A stretch of 53,327 nt of DNA from the NCBI GenBank assembly GCA_017563195.1, contig JAFXDO010000037.1, positions 1-53,327 of the forward strand, given 5' to 3'. Position numbers and translations under genes: made by a program. The stretch is from Clostridia bacterium. Lineage in GTDB: Bacteria > Bacillota > Clostridia > Oscillospirales > CAG-382. Of the stretch, positions 39,335 to 53,327 are shown in pieces. The notes under the pieces are model-generated. The model made no database searches. It was not told the origin of the DNA and worked only from the letters and a program-made list of their open reading frames with translations. Positions within the stretch are counted from its first letter, which is position 1; every line of letters starts with the position of its first letter.

Positions 39335-39964
39335 GTGAAGCAGACTGCTGTTATGAGATCCACACTCGGCAGACTTCCTGCATATCTGCAGTATTTAAGA
39401 AGTCTTGACCGTGAAGAAAACGCGAATATTTCCGCAACGGTCATCGCAAAGGCGCTCGGCCTCGGCGAGGTACAGGTGCGCAAGGATCTGAGTGCTGTCA
39501 GCGGAGCGGGGCGGCCCAAGCTCGGCTATCACACTAACGACCTTATCAAGAGGCTTGAGGAGGTGCTCGGACAGTACTCGCTCGCAAAGGCTGTAATAGT
39601 CGGTGCGGGCAGACTCGGAAACGCGCTTCTCGGCTACAATGGGTTCGCCGATTACGGTCTGGAGATCTCGGCGGCATTTGATTCGGATCCCTCGAAGCTT
39701 AACGACACCAACGCAGGCAAGGCTGTATATCCCCTCTCGATGCTTGAGGAATACTGCAAGCGCGAGGATATCAAGATCGCCGTCATAACCGTTCCCGCTG
39801 TCGCGGCGCAGGATATTTGCGACAGACTCGTGGCGTGCGGCATCGATGCGATACTCAATTTCGCACCCTGCACTCTGAGCGTCCCGGATAACGTCATCCT
39901 GCAAAACGAAAACCTTGCTCTTTCCCTGGCACATCTGAAGCATCAGATGGACAACAAACAGTAA
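39335..39964 (+). CDS. rex: Redox-sensing transcriptional repressor Rex
   Basis: 209 residues: winged-helix domain 1-~80 (STLGRLPAYLQYLRSL, then LGLGEVQVRKDLSAVSGAGRPKLGYH) and a Rossmann NAD(H)-binding domain with AVIVGAGRLGNALLGY. Rex binds DNA when NAD+ is high and leaves when NADH accumulates, releasing fermentation and hydrogenase genes. The GTG at 39335 is chosen since GGAGG lies 7 nt before it; an ATG at 39353 is possible. It heads the same-strand redox cluster, starting 33 nt before the ferredoxin gene, so it likely autoregulates the cluster. Confidence 0.95.
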   Translation: MKQTAVMRSTLGRLPAYLQYLRSLDREENANISATVIAKALGLGEVQVRKDLSAVSGAGRPKLGYHTNDLIKRLEEVLGQYSLAKAVIVGAGRLGNALLGYNGFADYGLEISAAFDSDPSKLNDTNAGKAVYPLSMLEEYCKREDIKIAVITVPAVAAQDICDRLVACGIDAILNFAPCTLSVPDNVILQNENLALSLAHLKHQMDNKQ

Positions 39965-40273: not shown

Positions 40274-41962
40274 ATGCCAAACTGTCTTACGCTGAAAAAA
40301 TCCAACTGTAAAAACTGTTATAAATGCATCAGGTACTGTCCCGTCAAGGCGATCCGCTTTTCGGGAAACCAGGCGCATATAATCGGCAACGAATGCATCC
40401 TTTGCGGACATTGCTTTGTCGTATGTCCCCAGAACGCTAAGGAGATCGTTAACGAAACCGAAAAGGTACGCGTTCTTCTCCAAAGCGGCGATCCCGTGAT
40501 CGTAAGCCTCGCACCTTCGTTCATTGCGAACTATGAGGGCGTGGGCATCAAGTCGATGCGCGAGGCTCTTAAGAAGCTCGGTTTTTACGACGTTGAGGAA
40601 ACTGCCATCGGCGCTACGATGGTCAAAAACGAATATGAAAGAATACTGCGCGAGGAAAACCGCGATATCGTCATCGCGTCCTGCTGTCACTCGATAAACC
40701 TTCTTATCCAGAAGCACTTCCCGCGTATGCTCCCCTATCTTGCAGACGTTGTTTCACCCATGCAGGCACACTGCAAGGATATCAAGTCGCGCTTCCCCAA
40801 TGCAAAGACCGTGTTTATCGGTCCCTGTGTTGCAAAGAAGGATGAGGCTGAGCATTACGAGGGCATCGTTGATGCGGTGCTCACCTTTGAGGAGCTTACC
40901 GAATGGCTCAATAAGGAAAGCATCGAGCTCAAGCAGGAGATATTCCCCAACGAAAACAGCCGTGCAAGATTTTTCCCGACAACCGGCGGTATTCTCAAAA
41001 CCATGAAGCAGGACGCACCCGGATATACCTATATGGCTATTGACGGCGTCTCAAACTGCATACAGGCACTCAAGGACATCGAAAAGGGCAACGTACACAA
41101 ATGCTTCATCGAAATGTCCGCGTGCGTGGGCAGCTGTGTTGGCGGACCTATTATGGAAAAGCTTCACAAGAGCTCCAGCACCATAAGAGACTATATGGCT
41201 GTTGCAAGCTTCGCGGGCACGAAGGACTTCGAGGTCGATCAACCCGATATGCTTACCATGAAGAAGCATTTCGAGTTCATCGAACAGCGCTCTCCGATAC
41301 CTACCGAGGACGAGATTTGCGAAATACTTCAGCAGATGGGCAAGTTCAAGCCCTCTCAGGAGCTCAACTGCGGCTCCTGCGGATACGATACCTGCCGCGA
41401 CAAGGCAGTTGCTATCTATCAGGGAAAGGCGGAGATTTCCATGTGTCTCCCCTTCCTTAAGGACAAAGCCGAAAGCTTCTCGGACACCATCGTCAAGAAC
41501 ACGCCCAACGGTCTGTTCGTTCTGAATGACAAGATGGAGGTACAGTCCATCAACAACGCCGCGCTCAAGATAATGAATCTGCGCTCCGCCAAGGACGTCC
41601 TCGGTGATCAGGTAGTACGCATACTCGATCCCGGCGTGTTCATGAGCGTTCAACGCACGGGCAAGGGCGTATATAACGAACGAGTTTATCTTGCCGAATA
41701 CGACAGATACGTCGAGCAGACGGTCGTACCCGACAAGGAAAGCCATATGCTCATATGCATTATGCGTGACGTGACCGATGAAGAGCACGAGAGAGACAGA
41801 AAAGAATCAATAAGCCGTCAGACAGTAGAGGTTGCCGACAAGGTCGTTGAAAAGCAGATGAGAATCGTTCAGGAGATCGCATCGCTTCTCGGCGAAACGG
41901 CTGCCGAAACAAAGATCGCCTTGGCAAAGCTCAAGGAATCGATCACCGACGACAACGATTAA
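40274..41962 (+). CDS. [FeFe]-hydrogenase homologue with PAS domain (sensory HydS-like)
   Basis: 562 residues. Two N-terminal 4Fe-4S motifs (Cys12/15/18/22 and 41/44/47/51); an H-cluster domain to ~310; a 4Fe-4S four-Cys module CGSCGYDTC (366-374) with Cys391; a PAS domain ~405-505; and a helical C-terminus. All H-cluster cysteines remain: ASCCHS (137, 138), GPCVAKK (185) and SACVGSCVGG (284, 288), though the L1 motif has His where Pro is usual. The PAS domain and tuned motifs match the sensory group C type. The usual downstream phosphatase/kinase is absent; a second hydrogenase gene follows 25 nt later. It may be an H2/redox sensor or a low-rate enzyme. Confidence 0.88.
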   Translation: MPNCLTLKKSNCKNCYKCIRYCPVKAIRFSGNQAHIIGNECILCGHCFVVCPQNAKEIVNETEKVRVLLQSGDPVIVSLAPSFIANYEGVGIKSMREALKKLGFYDVEETAIGATMVKNEYERILREENRDIVIASCCHSINLLIQKHFPRMLPYLADVVSPMQAHCKDIKSRFPNAKTVFIGPCVAKKDEAEHYEGIVDAVLTFEELTEWLNKESIELKQEIFPNENSRARFFPTTGGILKTMKQDAPGYTYMAIDGVSNCIQALKDIEKGNVHKCFIEMSACVGSCVGGPIMEKLHKSSSTIRDYMAVASFAGTKDFEVDQPDMLTMKKHFEFIEQRSPIPTEDEICEILQQMGKFKPSQELNCGSCGYDTCRDKAVAIYQGKAEISMCLPFLKDKAESFSDTIVKNTPNGLFVLNDKMEVQSINNAALKIMNLRSAKDVLGDQVVRILDPGVFMSVQRTGKGVYNERVYLAEYDRYVEQTVVPDKESHMLICIMRDVTDEEHERDRKESISRQTVEVADKVVEKQMRIVQEIASLLGETAAETKIALAKLKESITDDND

Positions 41963-41987: not shown

Positions 41988-43412
41988 ATGAGAAAGTTTG
42001 ATACAAAGGTACAGCACCTCAAATATAAGGTGCTGCGCGAGGTGGCAAGGCACGCCTGGGACGACAGTCTATACGATAAAATCTTGGACATACCTTCCAT
42101 TATTTCCCCGGGTAAGACTCCCACGATGCGTTGCTGTGTATACAAGGAACGCGCGATACTCACCGAAAGAGTAAAGCTTGCCATGGGCGGCGATAAGTCG
42201 AATCCCAACGTCATCGAGGTAATCGACATTGCCTGCGATGAATGCCCTGCAGCGGGATATGAGGTCACCGACTCCTGCCGCGGCTGTCTCGCTCACAGAT
42301 GCGAGGACGTATGCAAGCGCGGCGCGATCACCTTCGACCAGTACCACGTCGCACATATCGACAAGTCCAAGTGCGTCGAGTGCGGTCAGTGTGCAAAGGT
42401 CTGCCCCTTCAGCGCTATCGCAAACCGCAAGCGTCCCTGTCAGAACGCTTGTAAGGTTAAGGCAATCTCGATCAACAGCAACAACGCCGCGCACATCGAC
42501 AACAGTAAGTGCATATCCTGCGGCGCCTGTGTATATCAGTGCCCTTGGGGTGCGATTTCCGAAAAGTCGTTCATTCTCGACGTTATCGCGACACTCAAGG
42601 CAAGCAAGAGCGGAAACAACAAGGTCTATGCGGTAGTTGCACCCACCATCTCGAGCCAGTTCACCTATGCTAAGCTCGGACAGGTCATCACCGGTCTCAA
42701 GGAGCTCGGCTTCCACACGGTTATCGAGGCGGCTCTCGGCGCGGATATGGTCGCGCTCAGCGAATCGAAGGAGCTTGTGGAAAAGGGATTCCTCACCAGC
42801 TCGTGCTGTCCAGCGTTCGTAATGTACATCCAGAAGACCTTCCCCGAGCTCGTGCCCTTCATTTCGCACAACCCCTCGCCTATGACTGCGATCTCCGAGC
42901 ACATAAAGAAGATGGACCCCACCGCGAAGGTCGTATTCATCGGTCCCTGCACGGCTAAGAAGATGGAATTCCAGCTTGACAGCGTTAAGCCGTTCGTCGA
43001 TTCGGTCATCACCTTCGAGGAGCTTCAGGCACTGTTCGACAGCAAGGGCGTCGACATCACCGAGCTTGACGAGGGCGTGCTCGATAACGCTTCTTACTTC
43101 GGTCGTATCTTTGCTCGCTGCGGCGGCCTGTCAGACGCGGTAACCGAGGCTCTCAAGGAGCAGGGCATCGAGGACTTCGTGCTCAAGGCGTTCGCCTGCG
43201 ACGGCATCGAGGAATGCCGCACGGCGCTTCTCAAGAAGAGCAAGAACGTGCTTGACGCAAACTTCATCGAGGGTATGGCGTGCGTAGGCGGCTGTATCGG
43301 CGGCGCCGGCTGTCTCACCCACGGCGAAAAGAACAAGTCCGAGGTCGACAAATACGGCAGAGAGGCATTGGAAAAGACCATTCTCGACGCTACCAGCGTT
43401 CTCAATATGTAA
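41988..43412 (+). CDS. Group B-like monomeric [FeFe]-hydrogenase
   Basis: 474 residues. A long N-terminal part with Cys-rich DECPAAGYEVTDSCRGC and CEDVCKRGA, two ferredoxin motifs (CVECGQCAKVCP, CISCGACVYQCP), then an H-cluster domain with SSCCPAF (Cys273, 274), GPCTAKK (Cys321) and ACVGGCIGG (Cys432, 436). All five expected cysteines are present, so catalysis is likely. The layout matches group B enzymes common in fermenting gut Clostridia and Bacteroidota, which probably oxidise reduced ferredoxin to H2. It is in series with the PAS-linked homologue and the Hdr/Flx genes that could feed it ferredoxin. Confidence 0.88.
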   Translation: MRKFDTKVQHLKYKVLREVARHAWDDSLYDKILDIPSIISPGKTPTMRCCVYKERAILTERVKLAMGGDKSNPNVIEVIDIACDECPAAGYEVTDSCRGCLAHRCEDVCKRGAITFDQYHVAHIDKSKCVECGQCAKVCPFSAIANRKRPCQNACKVKAISINSNNAAHIDNSKCISCGACVYQCPWGAISEKSFILDVIATLKASKSGNNKVYAVVAPTISSQFTYAKLGQVITGLKELGFHTVIEAALGADMVALSESKELVEKGFLTSSCCPAFVMYIQKTFPELVPFISHNPSPMTAISEHIKKMDPTAKVVFIGPCTAKKMEFQLDSVKPFVDSVITFEELQALFDSKGVDITELDEGVLDNASYFGRIFARCGGLSDAVTEALKEQGIEDFVLKAFACDGIEECRTALLKKSKNVLDANFIEGMACVGGCIGGAGCLTHGEKNKSEVDKYGREALEKTILDATSVLNM

Positions 43413-43473: not shown

Positions 43474-44418
43474 ATGACTAAGATCACTATTATCGGTACC
43501 GGCAGCGTCGGTTCCACCATCGCTTACACCCTCACCGTTCAGGGTATCGCATCCGAAATCGTCATGATCGATATCAACGGCGAAAAGGCAATGGGCGAAG
43601 CGCTCGACATCCGTCAGGGCACCCCCTTCTGTCATCCCTGCACCATCTACGCAGGCAGCTATTCCGACGCAGCAGGCTCGGACATCGTCATTCTCACCTC
43701 CGGCGTTGCAAGAAAGCCCGGTCAGTCGAGACTTGACCTTGCTCAGATCAACGTTAACATCACCAAGCAGATCATTCCCGAGATCACCAAGTATGCACCC
43801 GATGCAACTTACGTTATCGTAAGCAATCCCGTTGATATTCTTACCTACACCTTCTGCAAGTACTCGGGACTTCCCCAGGAACGCATCATTGGCTCGGGCA
43901 CTATTCTCGACACCTCGAGACTTCGCTCGAGAATCTCCGAATACTATCAGGTCAACCAGCAGAACGTTCACGCATACGTGCTCGGTGAGCACGGCGACAG
44001 TTGCTTCGTTCCCTGGTCGCTCGCTAACATCAGTAACGTTCCCGTTAAGGATTACCGCGACTCCGTCCTCGGCACCGAGGGCGTATATCCCGAGCTCAAC
44101 GAAGCTGAGGTCGAGGAATACGTTCGCAAGTCCGGCGCACGCGTTATCCAGCGTAAGGGTGCGACCTTCTATGCGGTATCCATCTCTGTTTGCCGCGTAG
44201 TAAAGGCTCTTCTTTCGGGCATCGATACCACTCTAACCGTTTCCACCATGTGCAACGGCGAATACGGTATCGACGACGTTTGCCTCTCGCTTCTTAGCGT
44301 AGTCGGCAACAAGGGTGCACACGGCAAGGTCCTCCTTCCCTTGAACGACAAGGAAATCCAGCTTCTCCACAACAGTGCAAACGCGCTCAAGGAAGTTATC
44401 AACGCTATCGAGTTTTAA
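43474..44418 (+). CDS. Malate/lactate dehydrogenase (likely malate)
   Basis: 314-residue NAD-dependent 2-hydroxyacid dehydrogenase of the LDH/MDH family. NAD motif IIGTGSVGSTIAYTL, with Asp33 (MIDING) favouring NAD; catalytic Asp146, Arg149 and His173 (GEHGDS). The position that reads substrate, Gln102 in lactate dehydrogenases, is Arg80 here (GVARKPGQSR), which favours the extra carboxylate of oxaloacetate/malate. The downstream Thr in GATFYA is LDH-like, so the signature is mixed. Annotation pipelines will probably say L-lactate dehydrogenase. Fumarase follows 25 nt later, supporting oxaloacetate to malate to fumarate. RBS AAAGGAG. Confidence 0.88.
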   Translation: MTKITIIGTGSVGSTIAYTLTVQGIASEIVMIDINGEKAMGEALDIRQGTPFCHPCTIYAGSYSDAAGSDIVILTSGVARKPGQSRLDLAQINVNITKQIIPEITKYAPDATYVIVSNPVDILTYTFCKYSGLPQERIIGSGTILDTSRLRSRISEYYQVNQQNVHAYVLGEHGDSCFVPWSLANISNVPVKDYRDSVLGTEGVYPELNEAEVEEYVRKSGARVIQRKGATFYAVSISVCRVVKALLSGIDTTLTVSTMCNGEYGIDDVCLSLLSVVGNKGAHGKVLLPLNDKEIQLLHNSANALKEVINAIEF

Positions 44419-44443
44419 TAGATATTGAAAGGAAGCATCAGAA

Positions 44444-45820
44444 ATGGAATACCGCATAGAACACGATTCCATGGGCGAAATGAAGGTCCCTGCCGACAGA
44501 CTTTGGGCGGCACAGACTCAGAGAAGCCATGAGAATTTCGAAATCGGCGTAGGTATCGAAACCATGCCCGCCGAAATCATCCACGCCTTCGGTGTACTCA
44601 AAAAGGCTGCCGCCATCACCAACAACGCTCTCAAGCCCGAAAAGATGACCGACGAAAAGCTCGGAGCACTCAAGCAGGCTTGCGATGAGGTTATGGCAGG
44701 CACGCTCAACAGCCACTTCCCTCTCGTTGTCTGGCAGACCGGCTCGGGCACTCAGTCCAACATGAACTCGAACGAGGTTATTGCCAACCGTTCGAATCAG
44801 ATACTCGGCAAAAAGCTTCTTCATCCCAACGATGACGTTAATATGAGCCAGTCGTCCAACGACACCTTCCCCACCGCAATGCACATTGCGGCTGTCATCG
44901 CACTTGAGGATAAGCTTATCCCCGCGGCAGAAAGGCTCATCGAGACCTTTATCCGTCTCGAAGCAGAAAACGAGGGCATCGTTAAGAGCGGCAGAACCCA
45001 TCTTCAGGATGCTACCCCCATTAAGTTCAGTCAGGAAATCAGCGGCTGGAGATCCAGCCTTCAGAAGGACGTTGAGCTCATCAAGCGCTCTATCGATCCC
45101 CTTCGCGAGCTTGCGCTCGGCGGCACCGCAGTAGGCACCGGCCTCAACGCGCCCAAGGGCTTTGCCGAAAGAGTTGCAGAGGAAGTCAGCAACATCACCG
45201 GCAAGAAATTCATCACCGCAGAAAACAAGTTCCACTCGCTCACCTCGAAGGACGAGCTTGTATTCGCGCACGGTGCTATCAAGGCTCTCGCTTGCGATAT
45301 GATGAAGATAGCCAACGACGTTCGTTGGCTCGCTTCCGGCCCCAGAGACGGCTTGGGCGAGATCTTTATTCCCGAAAACGAGCCCGGCTCCTCGATTATG
45401 CCCGGCAAGGTCAACCCCACTCAGTGTGAGGCTGTTACCATGGTTGCCGTTCAGGTCATGGGCAACGACGTTGCCGTCAGCATGGCTGCTTCGCAGGGCA
45501 ACTTCGAGCTTAACGTATTTATGCCCGTTTGCATCTACAACTTCCTCCAGTCGGCAAGACTTCTTGCAGAGGCTATCGTTTCCTTCAACGACAAGTGCGC
45601 TGTAGGCATCGTTGCAAACAGAGAAAAGATGCATCACAACCTTCACAACTCTCTTATGCTCGTTACCGCGCTTAACCCCTACATCGGTTACGAAAACGCT
45701 GCAAAGACCGCAAAGAAGGCATACAAGGACAACATCTCGCTTAAGGAAGCCTGCGTAGAGCTCGGATTCCTTACCGCGGAACGCTTTGACGAGGTATTCC
45801 ACCCCGAAGAAATGGCTTAA
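44444..45820 (+). CDS. fumC: Fumarate hydratase class II
   Basis: Interconverts malate and fumarate. 458 residues with DSMGEMKVPADRLWAAQTQRS at the start, the SGTQSNMNSNEV block, GRTHLQDATPIKFSQE, and the superfamily signature GSSIMPGKVNP. It is iron-free and oxygen-tolerant, unlike class I. It lies between the malate dehydrogenase and the Hdr/Flx genes, so the likely direction is malate dehydration to supply fumarate as electron acceptor. Aspartase or argininosuccinate lyase is ruled out by overall pattern. Confidence 0.95.
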   Translation: MEYRIEHDSMGEMKVPADRLWAAQTQRSHENFEIGVGIETMPAEIIHAFGVLKKAAAITNNALKPEKMTDEKLGALKQACDEVMAGTLNSHFPLVVWQTGSGTQSNMNSNEVIANRSNQILGKKLLHPNDDVNMSQSSNDTFPTAMHIAAVIALEDKLIPAAERLIETFIRLEAENEGIVKSGRTHLQDATPIKFSQEISGWRSSLQKDVELIKRSIDPLRELALGGTAVGTGLNAPKGFAERVAEEVSNITGKKFITAENKFHSLTSKDELVFAHGAIKALACDMMKIANDVRWLASGPRDGLGEIFIPENEPGSSIMPGKVNPTQCEAVTMVAVQVMGNDVAVSMAASQGNFELNVFMPVCIYNFLQSARLLAEAIVSFNDKCAVGIVANREKMHHNLHNSLMLVTALNPYIGYENAAKTAKKAYKDNISLKEACVELGFLTAERFDEVFHPEEMA

Positions 45821-45873
45821 TTGCCGTATTCAAGGCTGATACAAAATATTTTAAAACTTACCGGAGGTAAAAT

Positions 45874-46662
45874 ATGAAGTTCAGTTATTTCCCCGGATGT
45901 ACTCTTAAGAACAAGGCGAAGGATCTTGATATATACGCAAGAAAGTGCGCCGAGGTCTTGGGTGTCACTCTGGAAGAAATAGAAAACTGGCAATGCTGCG
46001 GCGGCGTATTCACTACCGCCAAGGATGAGGTTGCCACCAAGCTTTCTTCGGTCCGTATCCTTAAGGACGCTCAGAAGAACAACTTAGACCTTGTAACCGT
46101 CTGCTCTGCCTGCCACAACGTTGTCAAGCAGACCAACTACGCAATGCAGAACGACGCCGAATTTGCAAGCAAGGTCAACAGATATATGGCTGAGGACGAG
46201 TACAACGGTGAAACCAAGATCTACCATTATCTTGAGCTTATCCGTGACGTTATCGGCTATGACAAGGTCAAGGAATGTGTCGTTAATCCCCTTGCAGGCA
46301 AGAAGATCGCCGCTTATTACGGTTGCCTTCTTCTCCGTCCCAACTCGGTAATGCGTATGGACGATCCCGAAAACCCCACCATTATCGAGGATCTTATCAA
46401 GGCTTTGGGTGCTACTCCCGTTGTTTACTCCTACCGCAACGAATGCTGCGGCGGCTACGTAAGAATGGAAAGCCCCGAATTGGCTGTCAAGAAGAGCAAC
46501 ACCGTCATCGAGTCGGCAAAGAAGGCAGGTGCGGAGGTTATCGTTACCGCTTGCCCGCTTTGCAAGTACAATCTCGAAAAATCGGGCTGTGACATTCCCG
46601 TAGTATATCTCACCGAGCTTCTCGCAGAGGCTTTGGGCGTCAAGGAGGATACAAATGAGTAA
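45874..46662 (+). CDS. hdrB: Heterodisulfide reductase subunit B-like
   Basis: 262 residues with two complete CCG motifs: Cys9, Cys41-42, Cys77/80, and Cys151, Cys191-192, Cys227/230. In methanogen HdrB these bind two non-cubane 4Fe-4S clusters where the disulfide is reduced. The same domain forms the C-terminal half of thiol:fumarate reductase subunit B. It overlaps hdrC by 8 nt. No DsrC-type or coenzyme M/B partner gene is visible, so its disulfide or thiol substrate is unknown. Confidence 0.92.
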   Translation: MKFSYFPGCTLKNKAKDLDIYARKCAEVLGVTLEEIENWQCCGGVFTTAKDEVATKLSSVRILKDAQKNNLDLVTVCSACHNVVKQTNYAMQNDAEFASKVNRYMAEDEYNGETKIYHYLELIRDVIGYDKVKECVVNPLAGKKIAAYYGCLLLRPNSVMRMDDPENPTIIEDLIKALGATPVVYSYRNECCGGYVRMESPELAVKKSNTVIESAKKAGAEVIVTACPLCKYNLEKSGCDIPVVYLTELLAEALGVKEDTNE

Positions 46663-47047
46663 CAGCAAGAAGTATCTTCGGGAAGAGATCATCCGCATCA
46701 GCGGTGTTAACCCCAAGAAGTGCATGCGTTGCGGCAAGTGCTCCGCCACCTGCCCCGCATACGACGAGATGGAATACCATCCTCATCAGTTCGTTTATAT
46801 GGTTGAAAACGGCAACATCGAGCCGCTCCTCGAATCCGAGTCGCTTTACAGATGCCTCACCTGCTTCGCATGCGTCGAAAGATGCCCGAGAAGCGTTGAG
46901 CCTGCAAAGCTCGTCGAGGCAGTACGCCTTGCCGCTGTCCGCAAGCAGGGCAACAACCGTATGACCGCAAACGACGTTCCCGAGCTTATCGACGACGAGA
47001 CCCCTCAGCAGTTGATAGTTTCGGCATTCAGAAAGTACACTAAGTAA
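46655..47047 (+). CDS. hdrC: Heterodisulfide reductase subunit C-like
   Basis: 130-residue soluble Fe-S protein with two 4Fe-4S motifs, CMRCGKCSATCP (followed by AYDEMEYHPHQ, typical of HdrC) and CLTCFACVERCPRSV. It carries electrons from HdrA to HdrB. It starts inside the end of hdrB and ends 15 nt before hdrA. Confidence 0.93.
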   Translation: MSNSKKYLREEIIRISGVNPKKCMRCGKCSATCPAYDEMEYHPHQFVYMVENGNIEPLLESESLYRCLTCFACVERCPRSVEPAKLVEAVRLAAVRKQGNNRMTANDVPELIDDETPQQLIVSAFRKYTK

Positions 47048-47062
47048 GGAGGAAAAGACAAA

Positions 47063-49057
47063 ATGCAAAGAATCGGTGTATTTGTATGCTGGTGTGGCAG
47101 CAACATCGCGGGAACCGTCGACGTTGTGGCTGTTGCCGAGGCTTTGAAGAAAGAGCCCGGAGTAGTCTTTTCCGCCAACTATCAGTATATGTGCTCGCAG
47201 GCAGGTCAGGATCTTATCAAGCAGGCCGTTAAGGAACACAACCTTACCGGTATCGTAGTTTGCTCCTGCTCTCCCCGTATGCACGAAGCAACCTTCCGCA
47301 AGACCGCGGCGGCTGCAGGCCTCAACCCCTATATGGTTGAAATCGCTAACATCCGTGAGCAGTGCTCCTGGGTCCACAAGGAAATGCCCATCGGTACCGA
47401 AAAGGCTATCATCCTCGGTAAGGCGGCTATCGCTAAGGTAAACCTCAACGTACCCCTCACCCCCGGTGAATCGCCGGTTACCAAGCGTGCCCTCGTTATC
47501 GGCGGCGGTATCGCAGGTATCCAGACCGCTCTCGACATCGCTGACGCAGGCTTTGAGGTAGACATTGTAGAAAAGAAGCCCACCATCGGCGGTAAGATGG
47601 CTCAGCTCGACAAGACCTTCCCGACGCTCGACTGCGCGGCTTGTATCCTCACCCCTAAGATGGTTGACGTCGCTCAGAACGAAAAGATCCGCATCTTCTC
47701 GTACAGCGAGGTGACCGAGGTCAAGGGCTTCGTCGGCAACTTCGACGTTAAGATCAAGAAGAAGGCTCGTTACGTTAAGGAAGAGCTTTGTACCGGCTGC
47801 GGTGCTTGTACCGAAAAGTGTCCCATGAAGAAGGTTCCCAACGACTTTAACCTCAACATGGACACCAAGCGTGCGATCTATATTCCCTTTGCACAGGCGG
47901 TTCCGAAGGTCGCGACCATCGACCCCGACTACTGTAATATGCTCAAGAACGGCAAATGCGGTGTTTGCTCCAAGGTTTGTACCGCAGGCGCTATCGATTA
48001 TACTCAGAAGGACGAATTCATCGAGGAAAAGTACGGTGCAATCGTTGTTGCGACCGGCTTCAATCCCATCAGCATGGATAAGTTCGACGAATTCGCTTAC
48101 AATCAGTCCAAGGACGTTATCACCTCTCTTGAATTCGAGCGTCTTACCAACGCCGCAGGTCCTACCGCAGGTAAGCTTCTCCGTCCCTCCGACGGAAAGC
48201 ATCCCGAAAAGATCGTTTTCGTACAGTGCGTAGGCTCGCGTTGCGATGCTTGCAACGAAAAGGGCAAGGAATATTGCTCGAAGATCTGCTGTATGTACAC
48301 CGCTAAGCACGCAATGCTTACCCGTGACAAGTATCCCGACACCGACGTTACCGTATTCTACATAGACGTAAGAACACCCGGTAAGAACTTCGACGAATTC
48401 TATCGCAGAGCAGTCGAGGAATACGGCGTTCACTACATCAAGGGTATGGTCGGCAAGGTCAGCCCCGAGGGTGACAAGCTTATGGTTCAGGCCTCCGATC
48501 TTCTTGACAACAAGCAGCTCAAGATCGAAGCAGACCTTGTAGTTCTTGCCGCGGCTATCGAGCCCGACAAGTCGGCACGTCCTTTAGCGACCATGCTTAC
48601 CGCAAGCATGGACACCAACGACTTCTTCACCGAAGCGCATCCCAAGCTTCGTCCCGTAGAGAGCCCCACGGCAGGCGTATTCCTTTCGGGCGCGTGCCAG
48701 GGTCCCAAGGACATTCCCGAAACCGTTGCTCAGGCAGGTGCCGCAGCATCTAAGGTTATCGGTCTTCTTGCAAAAGACAAGCTCACCGGCAACCCCTGCG
48801 TTGCTCACTCGAACGAGCTTATGTGTAACGGCTGCTCGAGCTGTGAAAGAGTATGTCCCTACGGCGCTATCACTTACGAGGATAAGGAATTCCGTATGCC
48901 CGACAGAACCACTCAGATTCGCAGGATCGCAGTAGTAAATCCCGCAGTCTGCCAAGGCTGTGGATGCTGTACAGTTGCTTGTCCTTCGGGCGCAATGGAT
49001 CTCAAGGGATTCGCAAGCGAACAGATCATGGCGGAGGTTGATGCAATATGCAAGTAA
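47063..49057 (+). CDS. hdrA: Heterodisulfide reductase subunit A-like flavoprotein
   Basis: 664 residues. Order: N-terminal domain with CWCG; FAD-binding Rossmann motif ALVIGGGIAGIQTAL (143-157) with TIGGKMAQLDKTFPTLDCAAC (Cys191/194); an inserted ferredoxin pair (CTGCGACTEKCP at 243-254, then CGVCSKVC); and a C-terminal dicluster ferredoxin (CNGCSSCERVCP, CQGCGCCTVACPSG). HdrA is the bifurcating flavoprotein in Hdr complexes, splitting electrons between ferredoxin and a high-potential acceptor. Its end overlaps the MvhD/FlxD gene by 10 nt. Confidence 0.94.
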   Translation: MQRIGVFVCWCGSNIAGTVDVVAVAEALKKEPGVVFSANYQYMCSQAGQDLIKQAVKEHNLTGIVVCSCSPRMHEATFRKTAAAAGLNPYMVEIANIREQCSWVHKEMPIGTEKAIILGKAAIAKVNLNVPLTPGESPVTKRALVIGGGIAGIQTALDIADAGFEVDIVEKKPTIGGKMAQLDKTFPTLDCAACILTPKMVDVAQNEKIRIFSYSEVTEVKGFVGNFDVKIKKKARYVKEELCTGCGACTEKCPMKKVPNDFNLNMDTKRAIYIPFAQAVPKVATIDPDYCNMLKNGKCGVCSKVCTAGAIDYTQKDEFIEEKYGAIVVATGFNPISMDKFDEFAYNQSKDVITSLEFERLTNAAGPTAGKLLRPSDGKHPEKIVFVQCVGSRCDACNEKGKEYCSKICCMYTAKHAMLTRDKYPDTDVTVFYIDVRTPGKNFDEFYRRAVEEYGVHYIKGMVGKVSPEGDKLMVQASDLLDNKQLKIEADLVVLAAAIEPDKSARPLATMLTASMDTNDFFTEAHPKLRPVESPTAGVFLSGACQGPKDIPETVAQAGAAASKVIGLLAKDKLTGNPCVAHSNELMCNGCSSCERVCPYGAITYEDKEFRMPDRTTQIRRIAVVNPAVCQGCGCCTVACPSGAMDLKGFASEQIMAEVDAICK

Positions 49058-49482
49058 AAGAATATAAGCCGCTTATCGTGGCATTCTGCTGTAACTGGTG
49101 CTCATACGCAGGCGCAGACCTTGCGGGCAACAACAGACTTAACTATCCCGCGGACGTAAAGATCATCCGTGTTCCCTGCTCCTGCAGAGTAAACCCGATG
49201 TTCGTTCTTCGCGCTTTCCAGCGCGGTGCCGACGGTGTTATCCTTTGCGGATGCCACCCCGGTGACTGCCACTACACCTCCGGCAACTACTACACCCGCC
49301 GCAGAATGGCGTTGCTCTTCTCTATGCTCGATTACCTCGGCATTGAAAGAGAGCGCACCAGAGTTGAATGGGTTTCTGCAGCTGAGGGTGCAAAGTTTGC
49401 CGCAACTATGAACGATTTCGCCGAAAAGGTCGCTGCCTTGGGCGAAAACAAGAGATTGGAGGACCTCCGATGCAAAAAATAA
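49048..49482 (+). CDS. MvhD/FlxD-type iron-sulfur subunit
   Basis: 144 residues with FCCNWCSYAGAD, VPCSCRVNP and CGCHPGDCHY, the cysteine pattern of MvhD (2Fe-2S), which docks an electron-input module onto HdrA. In Flx-Hdr complexes the same protein is called FlxD. It overlaps hdrA by 10 nt and the next gene by 13 nt, so complex assembly is probably co-translational. Confidence 0.93.
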   Translation: MQVKEYKPLIVAFCCNWCSYAGADLAGNNRLNYPADVKIIRVPCSCRVNPMFVLRAFQRGADGVILCGCHPGDCHYTSGNYYTRRRMALLFSMLDYLGIERERTRVEWVSAAEGAKFAATMNDFAEKVAALGENKRLEDLRCKK

Positions 49483-50456
49483 CTCGTGACGTATTGGTCG
49501 AAAAGGCGGTATCTCTTCTCGAAAACGGCAGTGTATCCTGTGTTCTCGGTTGGAAGAAGGGCGAATTCGACTACGACATAACTCCCGCGGTTTTCGAAAG
49601 CAAGGAGGAGCTCGTTAGCGACTTCATTTTCGATGATTTCTGCGGCGCAAACTTTTCCAAATATCTTGTTCAGAAGACTCGCAAGGTGGAAGGCAAAATC
49701 CTTGTTTTCCTCAAGCCCTGCGACACTTACAGCTTCAACCAGCTCCTCACCGAGCATCGTTTTGACAGAGAAAAGGTCTACGCGGTTGGCATCCCCTGCG
49801 AGGGCATGGTTGATATCGGTAAGATCAAGGCTATCACCGGCGATGGTATATCGAGCATCGTTTGCGGCGATACCATCAAGGTAAATACCATTTACGACGA
49901 AAGCTTCGATATCAACGCTAAGGACGTACTTCTCGAGCGTTGCATCAACTGCAAGAGCAAGAAGCACGTCGCTTACGACGAGCTCATCGGCGAAGAGGGC
50001 GAGGTAATCGAATCCAACAGATTCGACGAGGTCGCAAGACTCGAGGCTATGACTCCCGACGAAAGATTCGCATTCTGGCAGAACGAGCTTTCCAAGTGCA
50101 TCCGTTGCAACGCTTGTCGCGACGTATGCCCTGCCTGCACCTGCGAAAAGTGCGTATTCAACAACCCCAAGTCGGGTGTTGAAAACAAGGCTCCCGCAAA
50201 CGAATTCGAGGAAAAGATGTTCCACATCATCCGCGCATTCCACGTTGCAGGCCGTTGCACCGACTGCGGCGAATGCTCGAGAGTATGTCCCCAGAACATT
50301 CCTCTTCACCTCCTGAACAGAAAGTTCATCAAGGACATCGACAGCTTTTACGGCGAATATCAGGCAGGTGCAGAGGTTGGCTCGCGCGCACCGCTTGTCA
50401 ACTACACCACCGAGGACATCGAGCCCTGCGACGTTTTTGAAAGGGGGAACGACTGA
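49470..50456 (+). CDS. FlxB/C-like 4Fe-4S protein (FrhB-type + dicluster ferredoxin)
   Basis: 328 residues. N-terminal region resembles the FrhB/HdrX-like fold (LVFLKPCDTYSFNQL, GIPCEGMVDI, RCINCKSKKHV); C-terminal dicluster ferredoxin CIRCNACRDVCPACTC and CTDCGECSRVCPQN. Likely carries electrons from the NAD(P)H flavoprotein toward HdrA. Matches one of the two middle subunits of the Flx module; I cannot say FlxB or FlxC with certainty. Shares one base with the next gene (TGATG). Confidence 0.8.
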   Translation: MQKITRDVLVEKAVSLLENGSVSCVLGWKKGEFDYDITPAVFESKEELVSDFIFDDFCGANFSKYLVQKTRKVEGKILVFLKPCDTYSFNQLLTEHRFDREKVYAVGIPCEGMVDIGKIKAITGDGISSIVCGDTIKVNTIYDESFDINAKDVLLERCINCKSKKHVAYDELIGEEGEVIESNRFDEVARLEAMTPDERFAFWQNELSKCIRCNACRDVCPACTCEKCVFNNPKSGVENKAPANEFEEKMFHIIRAFHVAGRCTDCGECSRVCPQNIPLHLLNRKFIKDIDSFYGEYQAGAEVGSRAPLVNYTTEDIEPCDVFERGND

Positions 50457-51472
50457 TGCTTAAGTGTTCTATCGACGCATTAAACGGCGTTTTCGCGAAG
50501 ATCGCGGCTGACGCTACCCTTTATCTCCCCACCGACAAGGACGGTAGTACCGTTTACGCAGAGTGGTCCGAGGGCGTAGAATTGAGCAATGCGCTCAATA
50601 CCGCCAAGAGCCCCAAGGATTTCTTCTTCCCTCAGGTCGAGGATCTTATGAAGTTCAAGGTTGAGGGCAAGAGCATCTCTGTAGACGACATACGCTCCGA
50701 ATCCGAGGATTTCGTGGTATTCGGCGTTCGCGCTTGCGACGTAAGAAGCTTTGACATTCTCGACAGAGTTTTCCTTGTCGAGCCCTACGACAGCTATTAT
50801 GCATCCCGCAGAGAGCACGGCGTTATCATCTCGATGGCGTGCTCCAAGCCTGCTGAAACCTGCTTCTGCCGTACCTTCGGCATCGATTGCACCAACCCCG
50901 GCGGTGATATTGCAGTCTGGAAGACCGAGGATTCGGTTTATTGGAATGCTAACACCGAAAAGGGCGAAAAGCTTTTGAGCAAGCTCGGTCTTGAGGAATG
51001 CTCCGACGACGCGGTCAACGCTCAGAAGGAAAAGACCGAAAAGATCATGAGCAAGCTTCCGCTTGCAGGTCTCACCACCGACGGCTTCGGCGGCGGCAAG
51101 ACGCTCGATCTCTTCAACCGTCCCGAATGGAAGTCGCTTTCGGAATCCTGCTTGGGTTGCGGCACCTGTACCTTTGTATGCCCCACCTGTCAGTGCTACG
51201 ACGTGAAGGACTTCAACACCGGTAACGCGATTATCAGATACCGCTGCTGGGACTCCTGCATGTATTCCGACTTCACCAAGATGGCACACGGCAACAACCG
51301 TAACAGTCAGGTTGAAAGATTCAGACAGAGATTTATGCACAAGCTTGTTTACTATCCCGAAAACAACGAAGGTATTTTCGGTTGCGTAGGCTGTGGCAGA
51401 TGTCTTGCCAAGTGTCCCATCTCTATGAATATCGTTAAGGTTATGAAAACTATCGGAGGTAACGCAGAATGA
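50456..51472 (+). CDS. FlxC/B-like 4Fe-4S dicluster protein (sulfhydrogenase beta-like)
   Basis: 338 residues. An N-terminal domain like the beta subunit of sulfhydrogenases and AsrA (FVVFGVRACDVRSFDILDRVF, then SMACSKPAETCFC) and a C-terminal dicluster ferredoxin CLGCGTCTFVCPTCQC and CVGCGRCLAKCP, with RCWDSCMY between. Electron carrier in the Flx module. Overlaps the flavoprotein gene by 4 nt. Confidence 0.82.
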   Translation: MLKCSIDALNGVFAKIAADATLYLPTDKDGSTVYAEWSEGVELSNALNTAKSPKDFFFPQVEDLMKFKVEGKSISVDDIRSESEDFVVFGVRACDVRSFDILDRVFLVEPYDSYYASRREHGVIISMACSKPAETCFCRTFGIDCTNPGGDIAVWKTEDSVYWNANTEKGEKLLSKLGLEECSDDAVNAQKEKTEKIMSKLPLAGLTTDGFGGGKTLDLFNRPEWKSLSESCLGCGTCTFVCPTCQCYDVKDFNTGNAIIRYRCWDSCMYSDFTKMAHGNNRNSQVERFRQRFMHKLVYYPENNEGIFGCVGCGRCLAKCPISMNIVKVMKTIGGNAE

Positions 51473-52302
51473 ATACACGTAAAGAGCCGTTGATTCCTAC
51501 TGTCGGCGTTATCACCGACGTACGTCTTGATACACCCGATATCAAGACCTTCCGTGTTGTAACTCCCGACGGAAAGAAGGCGTTTGACCATATGCCCGGT
51601 CAGTGCGCTATGCTTTCCATCCCCGGTGTGGGCGAGGCGATGTTTTCCATCACCTCCTCCCCCACAAACACCGAATATATGGAATTTTCCATTAAAAAGT
51701 GCGGCTGTGTAACCGAATGGTTGCATCAGGCAGAGGTTGGTCAGAACATCACCATCCGCGGTCCGTACGGCAAGCCCTTCCCCGTTGATACCGAATTTGC
51801 GGGCAAGAACCTCCTGTTCATCGCAGGCGGCGTTGCGCTTGCTCCGCTCCGCTCGGTCATCAACTACGTTCGTCACTACAAGGACAGATACGGTAAGATC
51901 GACATCGTTTACGGTGCAAGAAGCAAGGAAGACCTTCTTCAGTACCGCGAGATCATCGAGGAATGGTCTGTTGACGAGGGTGTAACCGTTCACCTTACCA
52001 TCGACCGTGAGCAGGAGGGCTGGGACGGACACGTTGGATTTGTTCCCAACTACGTCAAGGAGCTTGGATTCGATACCGACAAGACCGTTATACTTTGCGG
52101 ACCTCCCATTATGATCAAGTTCACGCTCGCAGGTCTTACCGAGCTCGGCTTCGTCAAGGATCAGGTCTACACGACGCTCGAGCTTAAGATGAAGTGTGCG
52201 ATCGGCAAATGCGGCAGATGCAACGTCGGCTCCAAGTACGTCTGCAAGGACGGTCCCGTTTTCCGTCTCGACGAGCTTGACGAGCTTCCCAATGAGTATT
52301 AA
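51469..52302 (+). CDS. FlxA-like FAD/NAD(P)H oxidoreductase subunit
   Basis: 277 residues of the ferredoxin-NADP reductase/PyrK superfamily. FAD-domain pieces MPGQCAMLSI and FSITSSPT; RGPYGKPF; NAD(P)-binding FIAGGVALAPLRSVI and CGPPIMI; and a C-terminal 2Fe-2S motif CAIGKCGRCNVGSKYVC. This is the NADH (or NADPH) entry gate of Flx-Hdr complexes, and of sulfhydrogenase gamma subunits. The absence of a NiFe-hydrogenase gene in the cluster argues for the Flx reading. A 17-nt gap with AAAGGAG leads to the next gene. Confidence 0.88.
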   Translation: MNTRKEPLIPTVGVITDVRLDTPDIKTFRVVTPDGKKAFDHMPGQCAMLSIPGVGEAMFSITSSPTNTEYMEFSIKKCGCVTEWLHQAEVGQNITIRGPYGKPFPVDTEFAGKNLLFIAGGVALAPLRSVINYVRHYKDRYGKIDIVYGARSKEDLLQYREIIEEWSVDEGVTVHLTIDREQEGWDGHVGFVPNYVKELGFDTDKTVILCGPPIMIKFTLAGLTELGFVKDQVYTTLELKMKCAIGKCGRCNVGSKYVCKDGPVFRLDELDELPNEY

Positions 52303-52319
52303 TAAAGGAGATTCCGAAA

Positions 52320-52994
52320 ATGTCTAATATGGTAAATATTTTCCTGTTCGGTAAAAAGTACGAGGTTCCGGACAATTTAACTATAATGAACGCAATGGAA
52401 TACGCCGGCTATCAGCTCGTTCGCGGTTGCGGATGCCGTAACGGCTTCTGCGGTGCCTGCGCTACCATCTACCGCATCAAGGGCGACAAGGAACTGAAGT
52501 CCTGTCTCGCTTGCCAGACCAAGGTAGAGGACAATATGTACATTGCGACCCTTCCCTTCTTCCCTCTCGTGAAGCAGGTATACGACATCAACAAGGTTCC
52601 CGTAACCGAAACCGTTATGATGCAGCTCTATCCCGAGATCTATGCCTGCATCGGCTGTAACGCCTGCACCAAGGCTTGTACTCAGGAGCTCAACGTTATG
52701 CAGTACATTGCATACGCTCAGCGCGGCGACTTTGAAAAGTGTGCTGAGGAATCCTTCGACTGCGTAATGTGCGGCGTTTGCTCGTCGCGTTGCCCCGCAG
52801 GCATTTCGCATCCTCAGGTTGCAATGCTCGCGCGCAGAATCAACGGTAAGTACCTTGCTCCCGACTGCGGACATCTTAACGACCGCGTTCAGGAGATCAA
52901 GGACGGCACTTTCACCGAGCTCATCGAGGCTCTCATGCAGAAGCCCGTTGAGGAAATGAAAGAGCTTTACAACAACCGTGAGATCGAGAAATAA
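52320..52994 (+). CDS. Fumarate reductase/succinate dehydrogenase-type Fe-S subunit
   Basis: 224 residues. N-terminal plant-type 2Fe-2S domain with CRNGFCGAC (Cys39/44/47) and Cys62; C-terminal two-cluster domain CIGCNACTKACTQ and CVMCGVCSSRCPAG. This is the layout of SdhB/FrdB, but lacking a third 3Fe-4S-type pattern and any quinone-linked motif. It equals the N-terminal part of methanogen TfrB without the CCG half; an HdrB carrying CCG clusters is encoded in the same cluster. Probably transfers electrons to the flavoprotein that follows 14 nt later. Confidence 0.85.
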   Translation: MSNMVNIFLFGKKYEVPDNLTIMNAMEYAGYQLVRGCGCRNGFCGACATIYRIKGDKELKSCLACQTKVEDNMYIATLPFFPLVKQVYDINKVPVTETVMMQLYPEIYACIGCNACTKACTQELNVMQYIAYAQRGDFEKCAEESFDCVMCGVCSSRCPAGISHPQVAMLARRINGKYLAPDCGHLNDRVQEIKDGTFTELIEALMQKPVEEMKELYNNREIEK

Positions 52995-53008
52995 GGAGGG
53001 CTGACGAG

Positions 53009-53327
53009 ATGTATTCCGAAAAATTCCAAAAATCCTTAGCGGCAGTTGAGGCTGCAAGAGAAAAGAACATCGCTCTTGAGCCCGCTCGTATGACCGCACA
53101 GCAGAAGACCGATCTTCTCGCCGAATACCATCCCGACTACAAGCAGGATGAATTCGAGCTTCTTCAGATTGGTCCCAACAAGGGTGACAAGGTTCCCAAG
53201 GAGCTTGCGGCTACCCTTCAGGCTCACAGCAGAATATGTCCCTGCTGCGTTGATCTCGAAAACCCCGACTACGACGTTGACGTTCTCGTCATCGGCGGCG
53301 GCGGTGCAGGTTCCTCTGCAGCTATCG
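53009..53327 (+). CDS. FAD-binding fumarate reductase-type flavoprotein, partial
   Basis: The first 106 codons before the window ends. After an ~88-residue N-terminal extension containing SRICPCCVDL comes VLVIGGGGAGSSAAI, the FAD-binding start of the SdhA/FrdA/AprA superfamily. Its place directly after an SdhB-type subunit, with RBS AAGGAGGG, supports a fumarate reductase catalytic subunit. The catalytic residues lie beyond the window, so fumarate specificity is unproven. The N-terminal extension with a CPCC motif is unusual. Confidence 0.75.
   Translation, partial: MYSEKFQKSLAAVEAAREKNIALEPARMTAQQKTDLLAEYHPDYKQDEFELLQIGPNKGDKVPKELAATLQAHSRICPCCVDLENPDYDVDVLVIGGGGAGSSAAI

Follow-up and report, generated by a model that had tools for sequence, protein, structure and literature searches.

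A Flx-Hdr operon with fumarate reductase genes in gut clostridia: a candidate soluble NADH:fumarate/ferredoxin system

Described systems and the clostridial operon

In methanogens, HdrABC-MvhAGD has CoM-S-S-CoB as its acceptor and a hydrogenase as its donor, while the fumarate reductase TfrAB works with thiols; in Desulfovibrio vulgaris, the FlxABCD-HdrABC complex is linked to DsrC. We analysed an operon of related genes in a 53,327-nucleotide stretch of DNA from a Clostridia bacterium (JAFXDO010000037.1; the window), which is the entire contig C52 of a 1.71-Mb metagenome-assembled genome (MAG) of 72.85% completeness. The operon, MDH-FumC-HdrB-HdrC-HdrA-FlxD-FlxC-FlxB-FlxA-SdhB-SdhA (MDH, malate dehydrogenase), probably encodes a soluble, quinone-free system that bifurcates the electrons of NADH between fumarate and ferredoxin, with HdrB passing electrons to SdhB.

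The closest described system is the "succinate operon" of Pseudoclostridium thermosuccinogenes. According to the accessible text of PMC7282089, it is composed of a fumarase (RS03365), a Flx-Hdr set (RS03360-30, seven genes if the tags step by five), a fumarate reductase (RS03325-20) and a possible succinate transporter (RS03315) (CDQ83_RS03365-RS03315), and was up approximately 4-fold under CO2 limitation, a change that its authors described as not significant for all subunits. The same text states the hypothesis of a ferredoxin-coupled fumarate reductase, with reference to a preprint from 2019 (Koendjbiharie and van Kranenburg; 10.20944/preprints201912.0288.v1). The bifurcation proposal is thus not new, since this layout and coupling were already published. 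The relatives of our operon match the order fumarase, Flx-Hdr, fumarate reductase, transporter (the window itself ends after the start of SdhA); the likeness rests on the locus-tag layout and not on sequences, and the proposed ferredoxin coupling is the same. However, P. thermosuccinogenes is a thermophilic isolate, whereas here the hosts are gut MAGs, the MDH gene leads the operon, and genes for an [FeFe] hydrogenase and Rex lie upstream.

All seven subunit types of the D. vulgaris FlxABCD-HdrABC complex are encoded together in the window. That complex is tied to ethanol metabolism (reference list of PMC7282089), whereas here SdhBA genes are part of the operon and DsrC is absent. The likeness to methanogen TfrAB lies in the flavoprotein, which scores best against TfrA (343.9 bits), and in SdhB and HdrB, which match the N-terminal part and the C-terminal half, respectively, of the TfrB model. 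Methanogen TfrB is one chain, whereas here its halves are separate genes, and all scores lie below the TfrA and TfrB cut-offs; the "split TfrB" reading of the preliminary description agrees with these matches and with the separate HdrB subfamily reported below. TfrAB takes electrons from thiols, whereas here HdrA would supply them. Solved homologues of HdrA and HdrB are found in HdrABC-MvhAGD (5odc, 8rvu). Finally, tubeworm symbionts and Thioflavicoccus carry an hdrABC-flxABCD-korABCD-tfrAB cluster, i.e., fumarate reductase genes among Hdr-Flx genes, for which a direct complex was proposed in the accessible text of PMC6315080 and PMC11636981; it belongs to an autotrophic reductive tricarboxylic acid cycle with korABCD, whereas our operon has fumarase and MDH genes and no kor gene.

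Succinate is a main gut hydrogen sink and a precursor of propionate. In the open-access literature searched, we found no tested account of fumarate reduction or energy saving in quinone-less clostridia (including MAGs labelled Ruminococcus) and, among the titles and beginnings of abstracts listed, no paper on a gut clostridial version of the system or on the HdrB subfamily; the accessible text of two rumen papers (PMC6776011, PMC7174568) treats fumarate reduction without this system. The additions made here are the spread of the cluster in the gut, whole-genome absences and the HdrB subfamily.

Conservation of the operon and of its active sites

The operon is confirmed: all eleven genes that the preliminary description had read on one strand were found at 43474..53327 of the + strand by their open reading frame (ORF) coordinates and Pfam or NCBIfam matches (Table 1). 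Five of the junctions overlap, and the remaining gaps measure 14-53 bp. The SdhA-like gene is incomplete because the contig, and with it the window, ends there at an assembly break; the remainder was not found in the window's own MAG.

Among 60 related genomes searched, 18 (the window's included) encode an SdhB-like protein at ≥72% identity, one of the matches being truncated; in 13 relatives the identity is 72-97%. We read 17 loci of this set and, from a scan of named genomes in which 574 of 593 stretches were confirmed, the best 80 of the 574, i.e., 97 loci, six of which were fetched in both sets. The nine genes from HdrB to SdhA share one strand and a single order in 62 of the best 80 loci and in 15/17 loci of relatives. 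In every incomplete locus (18 and 2, respectively) a contig end cuts the cluster at the place of the absent genes, and the gene order read in the window is thus borne out by other genomes, far beyond chance. Of the best 80 loci, 59 contain FumC, 43 MDH and 62 an AspT-family transporter; the transporter gene usually comes next after SdhA, which in our case is beyond the window's end, and its family includes succinate exporters (accessible text of PMC9527358). A homologue of the group B [FeFe] hydrogenase, in some cases partial, was found in 16/97 loci. The cluster is common in gut clostridia: the host records of the best 80 loci name Clostridia, Oscillospiraceae, Ruminococcus and similar, 41 of these loci come from ruminant gut samples, and the closest among the matches listed (L061) is from water buffalo rectum (RGIG7669). 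The cluster was also observed on a contig of an "uncultured Treponema" MAG (L135), owing to a binning error, a naming error or horizontal transfer.

In relatives the flavoprotein has 534 amino acids (reference, L041), including an N-terminal extension of about 85 residues, while the 106 residues encoded in the window alone match no Pfam or NCBIfam family. For the L041 protein, TfrA was the top of 58 families (cut-off 718, above the score obtained), followed by SdhA/FrdA (283 bits) and NadB (263 bits). L-aspartate oxidase (NadB) was set aside on this score, and it would leave the SdhB partner unexplained. The C-terminal domain Succ_DH_flav_C had no Pfam match in any of the four relatives' flavoproteins scanned. 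The window's own copy ends before the catalytic residues, and the residue evidence comes from relatives: H318, T334, E335, R338, R359, H431 and R466, which we take to be the set for dicarboxylate binding and proton transfer, do not vary across 82 distinct sequences; they align with Escherichia coli SdhA and, except for R359 (an alignment gap), with FrdA. Loss of such residues, named in the preliminary description as a sign against its proposal, was thus not observed. The AlphaFold model of the flavoprotein (mean predicted local distance difference test score 73.6) informs on the fold alone, because its active-site loops are of low confidence; the best Foldseek matches are Sdh1, FrdA and other chains of complex II or fumarate reductases. 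Two ORFs take the place of the single SdhA-like gene in L051/L082 (one contig) and in L129, owing to a frameshift mutation or an assembly error.

The position of the covalent-FAD histidine is occupied by Asn127 in 81/82 sequences and by His in one, and the FAD is probably not covalently bound. Non-covalent FAD usually disfavours succinate oxidation. This bears on a reversed operation, in which succinate and reduced ferredoxin would be co-oxidised (confurcation) to yield NADH. The chemistry of Flx-Hdr and of fumarate reductases can run both ways, but the neighbouring genes (those for MDH, FumC and a transporter whose family includes succinate exporters), the predicted FAD attachment and the hosts, gut clostridia that are presumably fermenting, make this direction very improbable.

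In HdrB, the cysteines of both CCG motifs (C9, C41C42, C77, C80 and C151, C191C192, C227, C230) are invariant in 72/72 distinct sequences, as are the eight cluster cysteines of HdrC in 71. The closest solved chain to HdrA is 5odc_A, HdrA of MvhAGD-HdrABC (E 3.7e-205). In 15 of 40 HdrA loci (L201-L240, including the window's own and three copies), the codon matching the window's Cys194 is an in-frame TGA, which we take to be expected for a selenocysteine HdrA; this was observed in 0/81 HdrA ORFs of >600 amino acids from gut loci.

The first gene exceeds the NCBIfam cut-off for L-lactate dehydrogenase. Despite this score, lactate dehydrogenase was set aside on Arg80 of the substrate loop, invariant in 50/50 distinct relatives, a position that we take to mark malate dehydrogenases versus lactate dehydrogenases. 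The earlier "malate/lactate dehydrogenase" was therefore correct as to family and is narrowed here to malate dehydrogenase.

HdrB subfamily and proposed electron route

We compared HdrB proteins in a tree of 58 rows: 27 adjacent to SdhBA (the gut clade contributes 13, of which L112 and L053 are one contig), 9 unlinked ones from genomes with SdhBA, and 22 from genomes without it. The latter were drawn from the best 30 HdrA matches of 72 matching genomes, and their SdhBA-less status is defined by a search for SdhB-like proteins in a phylum-wide draw (398 genomes; threshold E 1e-30). L210 was dropped for its very long branch, L208, L209, L223 and L239 had no usable HdrB, and L211, L213, L231 and L236 were omitted as copies. 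A single branch with support 100/100 holds 30 rows, namely 26/27 of the SdhBA-adjacent, 4/9 of the unlinked and 0/22 of those from SdhBA-less genomes. Of the 10 HdrBs located away from SdhBA in SdhBA genomes, four thus lie inside the group, five outside and one was dropped. In G310, G103 and G357 the HdrB adjacent to SdhBA falls inside the group, and that of a separate Flx-Hdr set outside. The sole adjacent row outside is the second HdrB of L191 (14569-15441), beside a giant HdrA; the L191 operon carries both an inside-group and an outside-group HdrB.

Several residues differ between the groups: T10 (30/30, versus S in 26/28 others), S78 (28/30, versus A in 28/28), V83 (30/30, versus R in 26/28), Y195 (29/30, versus S, A or G) and H118 (30/30). 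All but the last lie within three residues of CCG cysteines. This subfamily is the best new evidence suggesting that HdrB is fitted to SdhB.

A different role for HdrB is conceivable, in which it reduces some protein or low-molecular-weight disulfide, SdhBA is a separate, TfrAB-like thiol-using enzyme, and the genes are merely co-transcribed. Methanogen TfrAB does use thiols (cited in PMC6315080), and both disulfide-type clusters of HdrB are intact, which is compatible with a disulfide substrate in place of SdhB. Nevertheless, we consider this explanation quite unlikely, as the SdhB here has no CCG half, which TfrB uses for thiols, and candidate partners were not found in the cluster genomes. 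In 17/18 cluster genomes, a CCG-domain search gave two matches, the two halves of a single HdrB, and no second CCG protein; this holds in 9/9 high-quality genomes. In the 18th, G016, the cluster contig stops before HdrB, while in G012 the only HdrB is on a separate contig (C5), so that its membership of the cluster is deduced. DsrC (PF04358) was found in none of the 18, the control being positive in E. coli; the DsrC-like partner that the preliminary description had considered damaging to its proposal is thus absent. In addition, three distant loci combine HdrC-HdrB with SdhBA without adjoining HdrA or Flx genes, though a Flx-Hdr set is present elsewhere in the genome.

With electron transfer from HdrB to SdhB as the preferred reading, the operon would supply the last steps of a reductive C4 branch, in which oxaloacetate is converted to malate (MDH), fumarate (FumC) and succinate (SdhBA), the last being probably exported by the AspT-family transporter encoded downstream in relatives. 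From the gene content we infer NADH as the donor, HdrB-to-SdhB transfer, bifurcation, ferredoxin reduction and the direction in vivo. FlxA would accept hydride from NAD(P)H, and FlxBC and FlxD would relay the electrons to the HdrA FAD, where each pair would be split between a high-potential branch (HdrC, HdrB, SdhB, FAD of SdhA, fumarate) and a low-potential one (HdrA to ferredoxin, Fd). The predicted net reaction, 2 NADH + fumarate + Fd(ox) -> 2 NAD+ + succinate + Fd(red), would be cytoplasmic, and reduced ferredoxin could leave through the upstream group B [FeFe] hydrogenase or, in some relatives, through Rnf. With potentials of -320 mV for NADH, +33 mV for fumarate and about -500 mV for ferredoxin, this reaction would be downhill by approximately 30 kJ/mol.

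On the same potentials, NADH to fumarate is strongly downhill unaided, and the complex might be a non-bifurcating soluble NADH:fumarate reductase, in which paired electrons pass from FlxA through Hdr to SdhBA, HdrA is a plain conduit and ferredoxin is not reduced. This is unlikely, since each of the 62 untruncated loci retains a bifurcating-type HdrA together with the full set of four Flx genes, a costly arrangement for a downhill transfer.

UbiA prenyltransferase, needed for quinones, was the test of the quinone pathway (membrane-anchor families lay outside the genome-wide search). It is missing in 16/18 cluster genomes, the window's included, and present in the other two; the control was positive in 14/14. 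The preliminary description had also presented the system as an alternative to Rnf, which is too loose: RnfC scores above the cut-off in 8/18 cluster genomes, while the window's own genome is not among them. In the window's own clade the best RnfC-like protein (G000:C22, L143:6340-8558) has 153.6 bits against a cut-off of 245.95 and was not counted as Rnf. The ORF directly after its gene encodes a membrane protein that is, by our own reading, RnfD-like, and inspection by eye of the ORFs around it revealed no RnfA, B, E or G; RnfC proteins below the cut-off also occur in close relatives.

SdhBA across the phylum

In the phylum-wide draw, 39/398 genomes, the window's included, encode an SdhB-like protein, and we read 28 loci of the 38 other genomes (L173 and L197 are cut near SdhB). 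The Hdr setting of SdhBA varies: (i) in five loci (L177, L180, L183, L184 and L190) a Flx-Hdr set adjoins SdhBA, in two gene orders, both unlike the window's (FlxA is cut by the edge of the stretch in all but L190); (ii) in five others (L188, L191, L192, L198 and L199) SdhBA is accompanied by HdrC, HdrB, HdrA, a second large HdrA-containing protein (1058-1489 amino acids), FlxD and an iron-sulfur protein; (iii) in three (L176, L187 and L189) HdrC-HdrB alone is adjacent, these being the genomes with a Flx-Hdr set elsewhere; and (iv) in 15 there is no clear Hdr gene beside SdhBA. The SdhBA and HdrA trees (FastTree, midpoint roots) were used as support only; in the former, the three gene orders that place SdhBA beside Flx-Hdr are in separate clades. 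The dual-HdrA loci would feed this fumarate reductase in another way, possibly one linked to ferredoxin. One of them, L188, has a malic enzyme gene and, after SdhA, a pyruvate/2-oxoacid:ferredoxin oxidoreductase gene, and looks nearer to the tubeworm symbiont cluster as given in the accessible text on the latter. Of the 28 loci, at least 13 encode fumarase, malic enzyme or pyruvate carboxylase in the stretch read, and DcuC or DctM also occurs among the neighbours. Because of the varied Hdr settings and C4-acid neighbours, SdhBA looks like a portable module for fumarate reduction.

Several points weigh against the bifurcating complex proposed here. Most family scores of the operon proteins are below the curated NCBIfam cut-offs, and no Rex box precedes the operon in a scan of the window with one consensus, which we take to be clostridial. 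The HdrB group was named after inspection of the tree, near-copies (13 rows of gut-clostridial kin) inflate its counts, and the data reject a clade made up of every SdhBA-adjacent HdrB and no others (p 4e-37), because four unlinked rows nest within it and one adjacent row falls outside. HdrA was not found at 1e-40 in two SdhBA genomes of one genus (G435, G353); together with the 15 loci lacking a clear Hdr gene, which also favour the non-bifurcating alternative, this implies that SdhBA can act without Hdr somewhere. Some distant neighbours are unrelated to C4 acids (BCCT transporter, MmgE/PrpD, RtcB, ThiF and acetyl-CoA synthetase), and CoA-transferase and cytochromes, also found there, do not point to them either. 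In Riftia symbionts, tfrAB expression did not track that of the other hdr-flx cluster genes (accessible text of PMC11636981), and the literature searched contained no enzyme test of ferredoxin-coupled fumarate reduction.

A wider account can be drawn from these comparisons, to which we would give an even chance. It would combine (i) a fumarate-type HdrB subfamily whose acceptor is SdhB and not a disulfide, the change being recorded in T10, S78, V83, Y195 and H118, (ii) a portable SdhBA served by several donors (Flx-Hdr in three gene orders, dual HdrA with a neighbouring 2-oxoacid oxidoreductase gene, HdrBC or none), and (iii) its use as the main soluble route to succinate in quinone-less gut clostridia, with energy kept as reduced ferredoxin. 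If true, succinate formation would also give reduced ferredoxin, shifting the ATP and H2 balances in models of the rumen and hindgut, and HdrB would be a more general electron relay, beyond a disulfide reductase.

Features of the window

Table 1. Genes of the operon and its upstream context (positions in the window)
Feature	Position	Strand	Evidence
Rex, NADH/NAD+-sensing repressor (upstream context)	39335..39964	+	NCBIfam Rex 255.6 bits, cut-off 130
Monomeric group B [FeFe] hydrogenase (upstream context), possible ferredoxin sink	41988..43412	+	TIGR04105 563.4 bits, cut-off 450
Malate dehydrogenase, LDH-like family (oxaloacetate -> malate)	43474..44418	+	Pfam Ldh_1_N/C; Arg80
Class II fumarate hydratase FumC	44444..45820	+	NCBIfam TIGR00979 705.7 bits, cut-off 664.75
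HdrB, "fumarate-type", two CCG domains, both non-cubane cluster motifs intact	45874..46662	+	Pfam CCG, residues, tree
HdrC, dicluster ferredoxin-like subunit	46655..47047	+	NCBIfam HdrC 65.8 bits, below cut-off 160
HdrA, flavin subunit, putative bifurcating; Cys, not selenocysteine, at 194	47063..49057	+	NCBIfam HdrA2 788 bits, below cut-off 1100
FlxD / MvhD	49048..49482	+	Pfam FlpD 186.6 bits
FlxC-like iron-sulfur subunit	49470..50456	+	Fer4 dicluster domains, operon position
FlxB-like subunit (ShyB/AsrA relatives)	50456..51472	+	Pfam Fer4_22; NCBIfam ShyB 185.6 bits, below cut-off
FlxA-like NAD(P)H-binding flavoprotein (HydG/AsrB relatives)	51469..52302	+	NAD_binding_1, FAD_binding_6, DHODB_Fe-S_bind
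SdhB/TfrB-N-like iron-sulfur subunit	52320..52994	+	Fer2 + Fer4 domains; TfrB model 19-95
SdhA/TfrA-like fumarate reductase flavoprotein, first 106 amino acids	53009..53326	+	95% identity to L041 residues 1-106

Control of the operon by Rex is not supported, as the window contains 5 matches to the consensus versus 2.4 expected, none of them near the operon. Promoter and terminator scans gave matches no more numerous than in shuffles. Between the Rex and group B hydrogenase genes, positions 40274-41962 encode a protein resembling [FeFe] hydrogenases that begins with a ferredoxin part and carries a long additional region at its C-terminus; its TIGR04105 match is below the cut-off, and it looks like a sensory hydrogenase.

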